NCBI RefSeq assembly: GCF_009900715.1
Contig: NZ_JAAAJC010000005.1
Span: forward strand, 1 to 64,000
Length of the DNA: 64,000 nucleotides
Reading direction: 5' to 3'
Source: Halococcus salsus
Lineage (GTDB): Archaea > Halobacteriota > Halobacteria > Halobacteriales > Halococcaceae
The notes beneath the pieces were generated by a model, which made no database searches, was not told the DNA's origin, and saw only the letters and a program-made list of their open reading frames with translations. The position numbers were made by a program, and so were the translations under genes. Shown in pieces: positions 2,273 to 25,881 of the stretch. How positions within the stretch are numbered: the stretch's first letter is position 1; the number at the start of each line of letters is the position of its first letter.

Positions 2273-4600
2273 TCAATCCACCCACACAGTCCTCGTTTCC
2301 GTAACCGGCGGGAGCGGCAGGTCGGGGAAGACGACCTCGACGGCGAACGTCAGCGTGTCGGGGTCCCCGCCGAACACCGGCGCGGGGAGGGTCTCGCTCC
2401 CGAGGAACGACGCGGTTTCGGTCATCTGAGTGTCGTTGACCGTCACCCGAAGCCCGGCCCGCGCGCCCTCGCCTCGATTCTCGACGGTGACCTCACACAG
2501 GTCGTTCTCGCCGCGCGCGATCCGCTCGGGGAAGGCCCCCCAGTCGATGTCGAGCGCGGGGAGGGCGCGTGCACGCTCGACCACCCGCTCGGCGACCCCC
2601 TCCGAGAGCCCGATCTCGACGAGTTCGTCGACTCCGGCCGAAACGACGTCCGCCGGGGTCTCGATCCCGGAACTCGCGAGTTTGCTCGCCCGGCCCGGCC
2701 CGACGCCGTCGATGGCGGTGAGCGCGACCGCGTCCTCGTCGACCCCGTTCTCGATGCGCGCCGCGACGCGACACGCCCGGTTGGCCTCCCACGCCGACCC
2801 GAAACGGTCGAGGAAGGCCCCGAGCGCGGCGAGGAGGCGGAGCGCGTTCTGGCGGATGACCCACGCGTCGCTCCGGAGTTCGGAGGGCGTCGAGCCACGA
2901 GTGCTGGATTCGAGGATCGCGAGCACTTTTCGAGTGCCCGGTTCGAGGTCGCCGCCGGAGCCGAGCACGCCCGCGATGGCGTCGCGCTCGGCGCGGCGGG
3001 CGTTGACGCTGTCGAACTCCGTGCTCTTCGCGACGGTTTCGAGGATGGCCCTCGTGCTCGGGTCGGTCCCCGCGAGGTCGAAAAAGCGGCGAGCGGTCGG
3101 CAGCCGGAGGTAGTACGACGAAGTCAGGGTGCCGAGCGGCGTCGCAGCGATGTCGAGGTCGTCCGTCTCGATGAACCCACGGTCTCGGAGTTCGGAGAGA
3201 GTCTCACGAACCTCCTCGCGGAGGCTCTCGACCGCGTCGGTTACGTGACCGTTCTTCGCCCGCACGAACCCGAAGGTGGTTTCGAGCCAGTCCATCACGT
3301 CGCCTACGTCCCGGATCGTCCCCATCGCGATCTCAGCGTTGAGGTGGGTGTCGAGGTCCGCGGCGAGGTGGGAGTCGATCTCCTTCCCGTCGCGGAGGAG
3401 TTTTCGGTACTTGTCGGCGTCGGCGGCGTCACAGACCACGTAGGCGTAGCCCGCGTCGTCGTAGCCCGGTCGGCCCGCGCGCCCGAGCATCTGGAGCACG
3501 TCGAGCGGGCTCATGTCGACCTCCCCCTCCAGTGGGTCGTGATATTTCGTATCCCGGATCACGACACACCGCGCGGGGAGGTTCACCCCCCACGCGAGCG
3601 TCGAGGTCGAGAAGAGGAGCTGGACCTTCCCCTCGCGGAACCACTCCTCGACGTGATCCTTGTCGGACCGCGAGAGACCCGCGTGGTGGAAGGCCACGCC
3701 GTCGAGCACGGAGTTCCGGAGGGTCTGGTTCTCGAGGACCTGGCTCTCGGTGTGAAAGTCGTAGTCGCCGCGCGCGCCCATCGGCACGTCCCGTGAGGCG
3801 AGTTCGTCGCGGGCCTTCTCGGCTGCACGGACGGTGTCCTGGCGCGAGGCCACGAACACCAGCGCCTGACCGCCGTCCCGAATGTGCTCTTCGGCGAGGT
3901 CGAGCGCGCGATAGAGGCGACGGTACTTGTCGGCGAAGGCGTTCTCGCCGTGGGTGTAGGTCCGAACACTGGATTCGAGGTCGACGGGTCGGTACTCGTC
4001 GCCGAAGTCGAAGGTGGTCTCGGGAGGCGCGTCGAGCCAGTCGGCGATGTCGTCTACGTTCGGCATCGTGGCCGAGAGCGCGACCACGCGGGGGTCACAG
4101 AGCCGCCGGAGCCGGGAGATGGTGACTTCGAGCACGCTGCCCCGCTTCTCGGAGTCGAGGAGGTGGACTTCGTCGATCACACAGCACGAGACGTCGGTGA
4201 TGAAGCCGTATCTGGGGGAGTCGTGTTTCCGCGTGGCCGAGTCCACCTTCTCGGGGGTCATCACGAGGATGTCGGCGCGCTCGGCGCGGTGGGGGACCAG
4301 GTCGCGCTCGCCGGTGACGACGTAGACCGAGTAGCCCATCGACTCGAAGCGCTCCCACTCGGATTCCTTCTCGTTGGTGAGCGCGCGGAGCGGCGCGATG
4401 AAGAGGGCCGTCCCACCGGACTGGAGACACTTGCAGATCGCGAGCTCGGCGAGGGCCGTCTTGCCCGAGGCGGTGGGCGCGCTGGCGACGACGTTCTCCT
4501 CGCGTTCGAGGATCGCCGGCAGTGCCTCGCGTTGCATCCGATTGAACTCCTCGAAGGCGAACGCGTCGGCGAACTCGGGGACCGTCTCGGCGACGCTCAT
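2273..4600 (-). CDS. Ski2-family DEVH helicase with Sec63-like C-terminus
   Basis: ATP-dependent superfamily 2 helicase of the Ski2/Hel308/Brr2 group, probably acting on DNA or RNA structures in repair or RNA processing. Order: Q-motif-like FNRMQREALPAI near residue 20; Walker A APTASGKT near 42; DEVH box near 145; SATMPN; then the second RecA domain with STSTLAWGVNLPA and QMLGRAGRPGYD. A Sec63-like part follows, with a helix-hairpin-helix (IDGVGPGRASKL, about 640) and a C-terminal immunoglobulin-like beta domain. The beta domain resembles Brr2/Sec63 more than classical Hel308. At 775 aa it is full length. The ATG sits at the edge of a perfect inverted repeat (4599-4628). Confidence 0.88.
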   Translation of the reverse strand: MSVAETVPEFADAFAFEEFNRMQREALPAILEREENVVASAPTASGKTALAELAICKCLQSGGTALFIAPLRALTNEKESEWERFESMGYSVYVVTGERDLVPHRAERADILVMTPEKVDSATRKHDSPRYGFITDVSCCVIDEVHLLDSEKRGSVLEVTISRLRRLCDPRVVALSATMPNVDDIADWLDAPPETTFDFGDEYRPVDLESSVRTYTHGENAFADKYRRLYRALDLAEEHIRDGGQALVFVASRQDTVRAAEKARDELASRDVPMGARGDYDFHTESQVLENQTLRNSVLDGVAFHHAGLSRSDKDHVEEWFREGKVQLLFSTSTLAWGVNLPARCVVIRDTKYHDPLEGEVDMSPLDVLQMLGRAGRPGYDDAGYAYVVCDAADADKYRKLLRDGKEIDSHLAADLDTHLNAEIAMGTIRDVGDVMDWLETTFGFVRAKNGHVTDAVESLREEVRETLSELRDRGFIETDDLDIAATPLGTLTSSYYLRLPTARRFFDLAGTDPSTRAILETVAKSTEFDSVNARRAERDAIAGVLGSGGDLEPGTRKVLAILESSTRGSTPSELRSDAWVIRQNALRLLAALGAFLDRFGSAWEANRACRVAARIENGVDEDAVALTAIDGVGPGRASKLASSGIETPADVVSAGVDELVEIGLSEGVAERVVERARALPALDIDWGAFPERIARGENDLCEVTVENRGEGARAGLRVTVNDTQMTETASFLGSETLPAPVFGGDPDTLTFAVEVVFPDLPLPPVTETRTVWVD

Positions 4601-22931: not shown

Positions 22932-23534
22932 TCAGTCCGCGAGGAGGGTCGATTCGACGTAGGTGTCGAGGGTGTCGCGAGTTGCCACCCTCGCGTCGTC
23001 CGACGTCACGAGGTGGCGCGTCATGCCACCCTCGGTGAGCGAGAGGAGGAGGTCGGTGGTGTACGCCGGGTCGACGTCGCGGAAGTCGCCGGTCTCGATA
23101 CCGCGTTCGAGGATCTCGACGAGGGTCTCGTGGAGCAGTCGGTCGGCGCGGGCGAACTGCTCGCGGTAGGCCTCGTTCATCGGGGCCTGCGAGCGGAGTT
23201 CGAAGATGGTGAGCCGGAACGCGCGCGTCTCGTCGTCGAGCCTCGCGGGCAGGGACCGGTCGAGGAACGTTTCGAGCTGTTCGCGTGGGGTGGCGTCCGG
23301 ATCGACCGCGTTCCTCGTCGCGAACCGGTCGAGGCCGTCCTTCAGCACGTCGATCAGGAGGCCGTCCTTGGTGTCGTAGTGGTAGTAGAGCAACGACTTG
23401 CTCTTCTCGAACTCGTCGGCGATCGCCTGGATCGTGAGGTCCGCGTACCCGTGCGTCTGGAGCGCGGCGTAGGTCGCCTCCACGATAGCGCGCTGGGTCT
23501 CCGAGCGTTGGTCGACGTCGCCGTCTGCGGCCAT
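22932..23534 (-). CDS. TetR/AcrR-family transcriptional regulator
   Basis: One-component repressor (200 aa). The N-terminal helix-turn-helix is classical: IVEATYAAL, then TIQAIADEFEKSKSLLYYHYDTKDGLL (recognition helix around residues 35-45). The C-terminal part would bind a small ligand. The ATG at 23534 is preferred over an extended frame because an inverted repeat (23539-23556) lies just upstream, suggesting autoregulation. Similar repeats stand before the adjacent zinc-ribbon membrane gene and the ABC exporter, so this regulator probably controls all three. The ligand is unknown; an exported drug or lipid-like compound is a guess from context. Confidence 0.9.
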   Translation of the reverse strand: MAADGDVDQRSETQRAIVEATYAALQTHGYADLTIQAIADEFEKSKSLLYYHYDTKDGLLIDVLKDGLDRFATRNAVDPDATPREQLETFLDRSLPARLDDETRAFRLTIFELRSQAPMNEAYREQFARADRLLHETLVEILERGIETGDFRDVDPAYTTDLLLSLTEGGMTRHLVTSDDARVATRDTLDTYVESTLLAD

Positions 23535-23538
23535 GGAT

Positions 23539-23556
23539 ACTGAATAGCCGTTCAGT
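23539..23556. promoter_or_regulatory. Putative TetR operator 1
   Basis: ACTGAATAGCCGTTCAGT has perfect 6-bp arms (ACTGAA/TTCAGT) with a 6-bp spacer, five bases upstream of the regulator's start codon. Read on the other strand, its first nine bases, ACTGAACGG, are the same as in site 3. Binding here would block the regulator's own leaderless start. Confidence 0.6.
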
Positions 23557-23574
23557 GTCGAAAAGGGTTTTCCT

Positions 23575-23982
23575 TCACCGGGTCGGCCCGGAACCCGGCT
23601 CGTCGAGGGGTTCGGCACACCACCGACAGAACGCGAGGTCGTCGTCGACGTCCCGCCCGCACTCGGGACAGACCGTCATCTCGCCGCCGGCAGCGTCGGT
23701 TCTGAGCTGAAGCAGGTAGTTATCGACGACCGCGACCCGGTAGGCGTCGAACACGCTGAGCGCGCTCACGACGAGGAGAGGTAAAGCGTCGAGCCACGCG
23801 AACGAACCGCCCGACAGCAGCGCGTCGAGCGTCGCATCGGGGACGAACGCGGTCGAGAGCAGGGTCAGCCCGATCCAGCCGAGCGCACGGAGCCAGCGCC
23901 GGAGGTAGACGTGGCCGAGCGCGGGCACCGCCGCCCCGAGGACCGCCGCGAGCCACGGCCGCTTCTTCGAACGGGTTTCCAT
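23575..23982 (-). CDS. Zinc-ribbon membrane protein
   Basis: Small membrane protein (135 aa) not assigned to a named function. Three hydrophobic stretches lie at about residues 10-24, 33-47 and 65-80. A C-terminal zinc ribbon of two CxxC knuckles follows (CPECGRDVDDD...CRWC, about 106-122). ATG 23982 is used; the preceding GTG would add one residue. It shares strand and spacing (40 bp) with the TetR gene and has an operator-like repeat 8 bases before its start, so it likely belongs to the same regulon as the ABC exporter. It may be an accessory or sensor subunit, which is inference. Confidence 0.75.
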   Translation of the reverse strand: METRSKKRPWLAAVLGAAVPALGHVYLRRWLRALGWIGLTLLSTAFVPDATLDALLSGGSFAWLDALPLLVVSALSVFDAYRVAVVDNYLLQLRTDAAGGEMTVCPECGRDVDDDLAFCRWCAEPLDEPGSGPTR

Positions 23983-23989
23983 CACGTTG

Positions 23990-24003
23990 ACTGAACAGTT
24001 AGT
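23990..24003. promoter_or_regulatory. Putative TetR operator 2
   Basis: ACTGAACAGTTAGT lies 8 bases before the zinc-ribbon gene's start. It matches the reverse of site 3 (ACTGAACGGTCAGT) at 12 of 14 positions, an imperfect inverted repeat with 5-bp arms. Confidence 0.55.
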
Positions 24004-24069
24004 TACGAATCAATCTTTCGCTCACCGAGTCGCTGTCCGGGTTCGTGGGTCGGCGGAGGGCTTATGGAG

Positions 24070-24083
24070 ACTGACCGTTCAGT
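24070..24083. promoter_or_regulatory. Putative TetR operator 3
   Basis: ACTGACCGTTCAGT is an inverted repeat with 5-bp arms (ACTGA/TCAGT) and a 4-bp spacer. It ends 11 bases before the ABC ATPase start codon, where it would occlude transcription or translation initiation. Together with sites 1 and 2 it forms a consistent operator family. Confidence 0.6.
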
Positions 24084-24094
24084 TAACGGCAACG

Positions 24095-25114
24095 ATGGAC
24101 GCGATACGTATCGACGGACTCACCAAGGAGTTCGGGTCGGTCACGGCGGTCGACGACCTCTCGTTCTCGGTGGCCGAGGGCGAACTGTTCGGGCTGATCG
24201 GGCCCAACGGCGCGGGGAAGTCCACCCTGATCAACATGCTGGTGACGCTGCTCGGACCCACGTCCGGAACCGCGCGCGTCAACGGTCACGACATCGGGAC
24301 GGAGACCGGCGCGGTGCGGGACAGCCTGGGGATCGTCTTTCAGGAACCCGCGCTCGACGAGGAGCTCACGGGCGCGGAGAACCTCGCGTTTCACGCCAGG
24401 CTGTACGGCCAGCGAAAGGCCGAACGCGACGCGCGGATCCCCGAGGTGCTCGATCTCGTGGACCTCGTTGAGGAAGGGGACCGACCGGTCGGCGAGTACT
24501 CGGGCGGGATGCAGCGCCGCCTCGAGATCGGTCGCGGGTTGCTCCACGAACCCGCCGTCCTGTTCCTCGACGAACCCACCGTCGGGCTCGACGCCCGCAC
24601 CCGGCGGGACACGTGGGAGTACATCCGTCGGATGAACGAGGAGTCGGGCGTGACGATCGTGCTCACCACCCACTACATGGAGGAGGCCGACACCCTGTGC
24701 GACCGCGTGGGGATCTTCGACGAAGGGAGCCTCGTGGCGCTGGATACACCCGAGAACCTGCGGGACGGGCTGGGTGGCGACGTCGTCGCGCTCGGTATCG
24801 AGGGGACGTCGACGACGTTCCGCGACCGACTCGATGACCGGACTTGGGTCCGGGAGTACGCCACGACCGACGACGGCGTCGACGTCACGCTCGCTCACGG
24901 CGAGACCCGGATCGTCGACCTCGTTCGCCTCGCCGACGACGCGGGCGCGACGATCACGTCGGTCGACCTCAGGAAACCCAGCCTCGAAAACGTCTTCCTC
25001 TCGCTCACGGGGAGCACGATCGCCGAGCGCGAGGCCGGCGGCAGGACGGGTGACGAAACCGCCGACGCGTCGGGCGACGACCGACGGACGGCGGTCGCGG
25101 GAGCGGGCGAATGA
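24095..25114 (+). CDS. ABC exporter ATP-binding protein (DrrA-type)
   Basis: ATPase subunit of an ABC-2 exporter (339 aa). Walker A is GPNGAGKS (about residues 38-45), signature YSGGMQRRLEIGRGLL, Walker B AVLFLDEPT, D-loop VGLDARTRR and H-loop LTTHYMEEAD. The C-terminal DrrA-like domain (SVDLRKPSLENVFLSLTG) is typical of drug or lipid exporters of the daunorubicin type. The ATG at 24095 follows operator site 3; a 36-residue extension is rejected. It overlaps the permease start by 4 bases (ATGA) and so is co-translated. Regulation by the TetR gene is inferred from the operators. Confidence 0.93.
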   Translation: MDAIRIDGLTKEFGSVTAVDDLSFSVAEGELFGLIGPNGAGKSTLINMLVTLLGPTSGTARVNGHDIGTETGAVRDSLGIVFQEPALDEELTGAENLAFHARLYGQRKAERDARIPEVLDLVDLVEEGDRPVGEYSGGMQRRLEIGRGLLHEPAVLFLDEPTVGLDARTRRDTWEYIRRMNEESGVTIVLTTHYMEEADTLCDRVGIFDEGSLVALDTPENLRDGLGGDVVALGIEGTSTTFRDRLDDRTWVREYATTDDGVDVTLAHGETRIVDLVRLADDAGATITSVDLRKPSLENVFLSLTGSTIAEREAGGRTGDETADASGDDRRTAVAGAGE

Positions 25115-25881
25115 GGCTGGTCGACCCCCTCGGGGTCTACGGGCTCTGGCTCCGGGACGTCAAGCGGTTCCTCAGAACCCCCTCGCGGATCGTGGGTTCG
25201 CTCGCGATGCCGCTGTTGTTCCTCGTCTTTCTGGGGTTCGGTCTCGACGGCGCGGCGATCCCCGGTCTCCCGGCGGGTGTCGACTACATCGAGTACTTGG
25301 TACCGGGGATCCTCGGTTTCTCGATGCTGTTCGGGGCCTCGTTCGCGGGCCTCGCGATCCTCTCGGACCAGGACGTGGGTTTTCTGAAGGAGATCCTCGT
25401 CGCGCCGGTCAGCCGGACCTCGATCGTGTTGGGACGCACCGCGGGCGGCTCGACCACCGCGATCGTCCAGGCCGCGCTGATCCTCGTGGTGTCGATACCG
25501 CTCGGGTTCGAGGTCGCGGGCTGGCTCTCGGTCCCGCTCGCGGCGGTGTTTCTGGTGCTGATCGCCCTCACGTTCGTCGGGTTCGGGATCGTGCTCGCCT
25601 CGCAGTTCTCCGACAGCGAGGGGTTCGGCCTCATCGTTCAGTTCGTCGTCTTCCCCCTCTTCTTCCTCTCGGGGGCGATCTATCCCCTCTCCGGGCTCCC
25701 GCGGGTCGTCCAGTACGTCGCGATGGTCAACCCGCTGACCTACGGCGTCGACGGGCTCCGCGGCGCGCTGGTCGGGGTGTCGTCGTACCCGCTGGTCGTG
25801 GATTTCGGTGCGCTCGTGGTCTCCTCGGCGGTCATGGTCTCGCTCGGCGCGTACCTCTTCGAACGGGTTGAGGCGGTCTGA
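25111..25881 (+). CDS. ABC-2 type exporter permease (DrrB-type)
   Basis: Membrane subunit partnered with the preceding ATPase (256 aa). Six hydrophobic helices are visible. Typical ABC-2 features include a first helix after FLRTPSRIVGSLAMPLLFL, a coupling segment FLKEILVAPVSRTSIVLG, and the LSGAIYPLSGLP stretch before the last helices. It starts inside the ATPase stop (ATGA). The DrrAB family exports hydrophobic drugs or lipids; no substrate can be read here. It ends 28 bp before the convergent LutAB fusion gene. Confidence 0.92.
   Translation: MRLVDPLGVYGLWLRDVKRFLRTPSRIVGSLAMPLLFLVFLGFGLDGAAIPGLPAGVDYIEYLVPGILGFSMLFGASFAGLAILSDQDVGFLKEILVAPVSRTSIVLGRTAGGSTTAIVQAALILVVSIPLGFEVAGWLSVPLAAVFLVLIALTFVGFGIVLASQFSDSEGFGLIVQFVVFPLFFLSGAIYPLSGLPRVVQYVAMVNPLTYGVDGLRGALVGVSSYPLVVDFGALVVSSAVMVSLGAYLFERVEAV

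Follow-up and report, generated by a model that had tools for sequence, protein, structure and literature searches.

A predicted TetR-type regulon of a zinc-ribbon membrane protein and a DrrAB-type exporter in Halococcus

In the window analysed here, the whole stretch of 64,000 nucleotides from Halococcus salsus, a regulator gene lies beside the genes of a zinc-ribbon membrane protein and of an ABC exporter. The regulator gene (tetR, 22932..23534, minus strand) encodes a TetR-family repressor of 200 aa with the Pfam domains TetR_N (1.3e-9) and TetR_C_6 (BetI-type C-terminal, 4.1e-13), which scores 38.1 bits with PF00440 against a cut-off of 24. Its closest solved structure is 3crj (E 3.1e-30). 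Orthologues 98% to 52% identical occur in eight other genomes of the genus, and those that were read share the recognition-helix stretch KSKSLLYYHYDTKD without change. The gene termed zr (23575..23982, minus strand) encodes a DUF7575 zinc-ribbon membrane protein of 135 aa (Pfam DUF7575, 2e-12; 46.6 bits, Pfam cut-off 28.5). The ribbon (CPxCG...FCxWC) is C-terminal, and its cysteines C105, C108, C119 and C122 are invariant in 26 sequences; the 26-sequence structure model predicts two long helices followed by the ribbon (mean pLDDT 75.8, pTM 0.53), at a confidence considered insufficient for a fold search. On the plus strand, drrA (24095..25114) encodes a DrrA-type ABC ATPase of 339 aa (ABC_tran) that passes the subfamily test TIGR01188 (346.3 bits, cut-off 312.45), and drrB (25111..25881), the start of which overlaps the end of drrA by 4 bp, encodes a DrrB-type ABC-2 permease of 256 aa (PF01061, ABC2_membrane, 5.3e-34). 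As the permease scores 209 bits with TIGR01247, under the drrB cut-off of 223.05, in a match of nearly full length, it is named 'DrrB-like' only. The co-directional tetR and zr are separated by a 40-bp gap, and the divergent zr and drrA by a gap of 112 bp.

Each of the three start regions contains an inverted repeat. Site 1 (23539-23556, minus strand, ACTGAATAGCCGTTCAGT; ACTGAACGGCTATTCAGT on the coding strand), an 18-bp variant in the gap between tetR and zr, is located 4 bp before the tetR ATG (23534). The gap between zr and drrA holds two 14-bp sites, of which site 2 (23990-24003, minus strand, ACTGAACAGTTAGT; ACTAACTGTTCAGT on the coding strand) lies 7 bp before the zr ATG (23982) and site 3 (24070-24083, plus strand, ACTGACCGTTCAGT) 11 bp before the drrA ATG (24095). 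The repeats thus stand where an earlier note, made from the letters of the window, had placed them. Its further statement of 12 matching positions out of 14 between sites 2 and 3 is correct with site 2 on the minus strand (two mismatches), whereas as printed the two agree at 10/14; the nine-base half ACTGAACGG that it assigned to both site 1 and site 3 is common to them (minus strand). Sequence inspection points to a putative promoter element at each start: a TATA-like CCCTTTT for tetR (23561..23567, minus strand), a BRE/TATA-like CGAAAGATTGATT for zr (24008..24020, minus strand) and a TATA-like CTTATGG for drrA (24061..24067, plus strand). At the corresponding positions in genus orthologues, a CTTTT element recurs before tetR, CGAAAGACTGA or similar is retained before zr, and CTTATG or TTTACATA is found before drrA. 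All three operators start at most about 10 bases from the TATA-like element and end before the start codon. Since 72% of the protein-coding transcripts of Haloferax volcanii are leaderless (PMC4983044), the operators are, by analogy, probably located just upstream of or across the transcription start, a position that suits repression by polymerase blocking.

The earlier note had held that its proposal should fall if the repeats were absent upstream of orthologous genes in related haloarchaea. They were looked for, and sites are kept at the tetR, zr and drrA orthologues. The drrA operator is retained in all eight other genus orthologues, identical to site 3 in four further genomes and similar in the other four. 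The cluster is intact, with operators at all three starts, in G002, G006, G005 and G001. In four Halococcus genomes (G003, G004, G007 and G009) tetR, zr and drrAB reside at three distant loci, each with an operator: ACTGAATAGTTAGT at tetR, AATAACTGTTCAGT at zr, and ACTGACTGTTCAGT, ACTGAACAGTCAGT or ACTGAACGGTCAGT at drrA. The operators of these dispersed genes are the strongest evidence, because linkage cannot explain them and their conservation is no by-product of it. The proposal of a compact predicted regulon of TetR, zr and a DrrAB-type exporter is thereby supported, the sites being conserved at orthologues even where these are unlinked. The zr site AATAACTGTTCAGT (L081-L084) is 13/14 identical to that of the window; an 18-bp reading of these sites was set aside, the 14-bp reading being simpler. 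The 14-bp site is lacking at a second drrA paralogue (43% identical, L120-L127) and at a second zr paralogue (L182, L184-L187), and the drrA paralogues of L118 and L119 have a promoter region in common with another TetR gene and a different palindrome, TTGAGTGAATACTCATTCAA.

Additional copies of the motif are seen in the genus. A strict 14-bp operator is found 6 bp before the gene of an 89-aa membrane-like protein in G003, G004 and G009 (L164 2286-2299, L165 2257-2270, L166 2256-2269), a gene not found in the other seven genus genomes; this likely recruit suggests that new membrane genes join the regulon. The palindrome ACTAACTGTTTAGT, conserved in three genomes (L167 2263-2276, L168 2285-2298, L169 2308-2321), precedes a short and doubtfully coding reading frame (MANTVTTPR...), and the neighbouring gene at these loci appears by eye to be Nramp-type transporter-like. 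Finally, a locus of G009 (L174) contains the operator-like palindromes ACTAACTGGTTAGT (2052-2065) and ACTAAATGGTTAGT (3285-3298) about 1.2 kb apart in similar settings, with AACTAAGCA or AAGTAAGCA just before and ATGG plus AT-rich sequence after; the pair is possibly an integrated element.

Site 1 differs in geometry. Its halves ACTGAAC and ATTCAGT are 4 bp apart (7+4+7, 18 bp) in the source species and in G002, while the tetR orthologues of the other genus members have abutting halves in a 14-bp site (ACTGAATAGTTAGT or ATTGAAYATTCAGT), always 4 bp before the ATG. The claim of one operator family is supported with the amendment that site 1 is an 18-bp lineage variant and not an equal copy. As its right nine bases (CTATTCAGT) are unchanged relative to the orthologous 14-bp sites (ACTAACTATTCAGT on the same strand), it is probably the outer left half that is derived. 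It is conceivable, if doubtful, that site 1 is a decayed operator, in which the inner half has been lost, the new outer half is accidental and the autoregulation of tetR is weakened. The unchanged right nine bases, combined with differences at positions 2-5 of the inner half, are consistent with such a decay, as is the score of site 1 as a 14-mer in a weight matrix (12.6 bits, where sites 2 and 3 reach 22), which is low because the geometry is 7+4+7 and not 7+7. However, the outer half ACTGAAC matches the consensus half perfectly and is shared with the sister species G002, zr in G155 and G255 (L096, L099) is likewise preceded by 18-bp sites with this geometry, and FadRSa, a TetR-family repressor of Sulfolobus acidocaldarius, uses two operator-dependent modes, as one dimer or as a dimer of dimers (PMC6449355). 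Palindromes of the 18-bp, 7+4+7 type are also found at the starts of the paralogous TetR genes L014, L054, L055, L058 and L061; a single TetR subfamily accommodates both operator geometries.

Similar ACTRAC-type sites accompany several TetR paralogues in these genomes, and the assignment of TetR to site among them is not proven. One reading is that a paralogue of TetR is the main occupant of some sites, above all site 1, in which case cross-regulation would replace simple autoregulation. The product of L014, encoded in the same genome and 45% identical, has the 7+4+7 palindrome ACTAACC-ACGT-AGTCAGT at its own start, and a further TetR gene (L171) is likewise preceded by strict-motif sites. We nevertheless consider this unlikely, as the tetR orthologues of other species have the 14-bp form exactly 4 bp before the ATG, and the sites stay with the tetR, zr and drrA orthologues after dispersal of the genes. 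A TetR-family protein with a predicted palindromic operator at its own promoter is also what the genus orthologues present, their sites lying 4 bp before the ATG.

What counts as evidence is the full palindrome, present at three promoters, rather than the nine-base half. The latter, with one mismatch allowed, occurs 15 times in the window against 16.4 expected, a frequency at chance level, and was dropped as evidence on its own. The strict 14-bp motif ACTRAMYRKTYAGT is present at three places in the genome of 3.5 Mb, including two at the locus (none for the reversed control), and at 31 places across ten genus genomes compared to two for the reversed control. This pattern was composed with the window sites in view, and a weight matrix trained without the source species and its near relative is the fairer test. 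By this matrix the two highest scores of the window are those of site 2 (22.6 bits) and site 3 (22.0 bits), compared with a best score averaging 10.0 (maximum 16.4) in 30 Markov shuffles of 64 kb; the ranking is the same with a matrix built solely from other haloarchaeal genera. That the palindromes are chance or composition effects, as the unenriched half-site and the parity of loose gapped palindromes with their reversed control (21 and 22 genome-wide) might suggest, is scarcely credible against these strict-motif counts and against the conservation of the sites across species at orthologous promoters, by which the orthologue test already contradicts it. The loose gapped search was discarded, most of its extra places being without clear promoter context; one candidate (C6:11458) falls inside a reading frame, and another (C6:11110) lies 2 bp before a gene. 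The third strict-motif place, ACTAACCAGTCAGTTAGTG on contig C18 of G000 (L170 2899-2912), stands immediately in front of a truncated reading frame of an MFS-type transporter, close to the end of the contig. The operator strings gave no match in a literature search.

Beyond the genus, a zr homologue is present in 275 of the 293 order genomes searched. Among 36 zr loci, which are best matches and thus a biased sample that includes near relatives, 33 show at least 7/8 palindrome positions no more than 50 bp from the start, in most cases 6-7 bp upstream of it. At the seven genus loci among them (L081-L087) the best-scoring palindrome match is in a different register, and the aligned operator agrees at 13/14 in the representatives scored. 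A TetR gene occurs within about 1.5 kb of zr in 15 of 21 loci outside the genus (L088-L108), and an adjacent DrrA 60-70% identical to that of the window is found in G067 alone (L095, L188), where the drrA start is without the 14-bp site. In most other haloarchaea sampled the exporter does not adjoin zr and tetR. TetR and zr therefore look like an older, deeply conserved pairing, and the exporter like a more lineage-restricted member. The predicted regulon in which the earlier note coupled zr to the exporter is supported by the sites at both genes, with the qualification that the TetR-zr pairing is the deeper one. In some other haloarchaea (L088-L091, L097, L098 and L100) two divergent TetR genes accompany zr; one tends to have the 14-bp site close to the start, the other a CAAAACCGTTAT-like element in its place. 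A more speculative scenario, to which we would give little weight, is a haloarchaea-wide core of TetR and DUF7575 protein, in which the membrane protein would sense or modify envelope stress or feed back on the repressor, exporters would be added per lineage, and one TetR would read both 14-bp and 18-bp operators.

The sequence comparisons make it likely that the locus is a TetR-type repressor regulon, with tetR, zr and drrAB under one family of 14-bp palindromes, and the predicted regulon is very probably real. Counted against this reading are the spacing of site 1, the usual separation of the exporter from zr and tetR elsewhere, and the drrA of G067 that is without a site. In the proposed mechanism, a TetR dimer would bind the 14-bp palindrome (consensus ACTGAAC/GTTCAGT), which follows the TATA-like element and precedes the start codon at zr, drrAB and tetR, and would there block assembly or movement of the transcription machinery. 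This would keep the levels of the exporter, the zinc-ribbon membrane protein and TetR itself low, until a small ligand, presumably related to the exporter substrate, releases TetR and all three promoters are induced. What we infer of this mechanism is that this TetR binds the sites and represses, that a ligand releases it, and that zr and DrrAB are functionally linked.

The arrangement resembles the TetR-tetA switch in that a TetR_N regulator adjoins an exporter operon, with the target promoter within 200 bp and short palindromic operators at the promoters of regulator and target. It differs in that zr and drrAB form the divergent pair and tetR follows zr in the same direction, in the three separate promoters with one operator each, and in the use of an ABC-2 pump instead of an MFS protein and of archaeal TATA/TFB promoters. 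With 112 bp, the zr-drrA spacer satisfies the empirical rule that divergent targets of TetR-family regulators lie within 200 bp (PMC3511530), zr and not tetR being the divergent partner. FadRSa (PMC6449355), likewise an archaeal TetR, also has semi-palindromic operators, one of them at its own gene, and few sites across the genome; its motif is 16 bp long and its target a lipid-degradation gene cluster, whereas the sites of 14 and 18 bp here precede genes of membrane proteins. Its two modes of binding may have a counterpart here in the coexistence of 14-bp and 18-bp sites, as seen in the DNA sequence. The exporter is comparable to the daunorubicin-type DrrAB exporters, with an ATPase above the TIGR01188 drrA cut-off and a DrrB-like permease, and differs in that the permease is just under the drrB cut-off and the export of a drug is putative. 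The zr product shares with the haloarchaeal DUF7575 proteins the C-terminal ribbon CPxCG...FCxWC and a score above the Pfam cut-off. In the literature searched DUF7575 is not named, and TetR control of DUF7575 is not described under that name.

TetR-controlled exporters are a familiar kind of system, while the predicted regulon itself is new and well supported. Once the ligand is known, it may offer an inducible promoter for haloarchaea. For an uncharacterised family of membrane zinc-ribbon proteins, widespread in the order, a predicted repressor, operator and target list are now available, and the linked and dispersed versions of one regulon within one genus constitute a natural experiment in which the prediction is directly testable.
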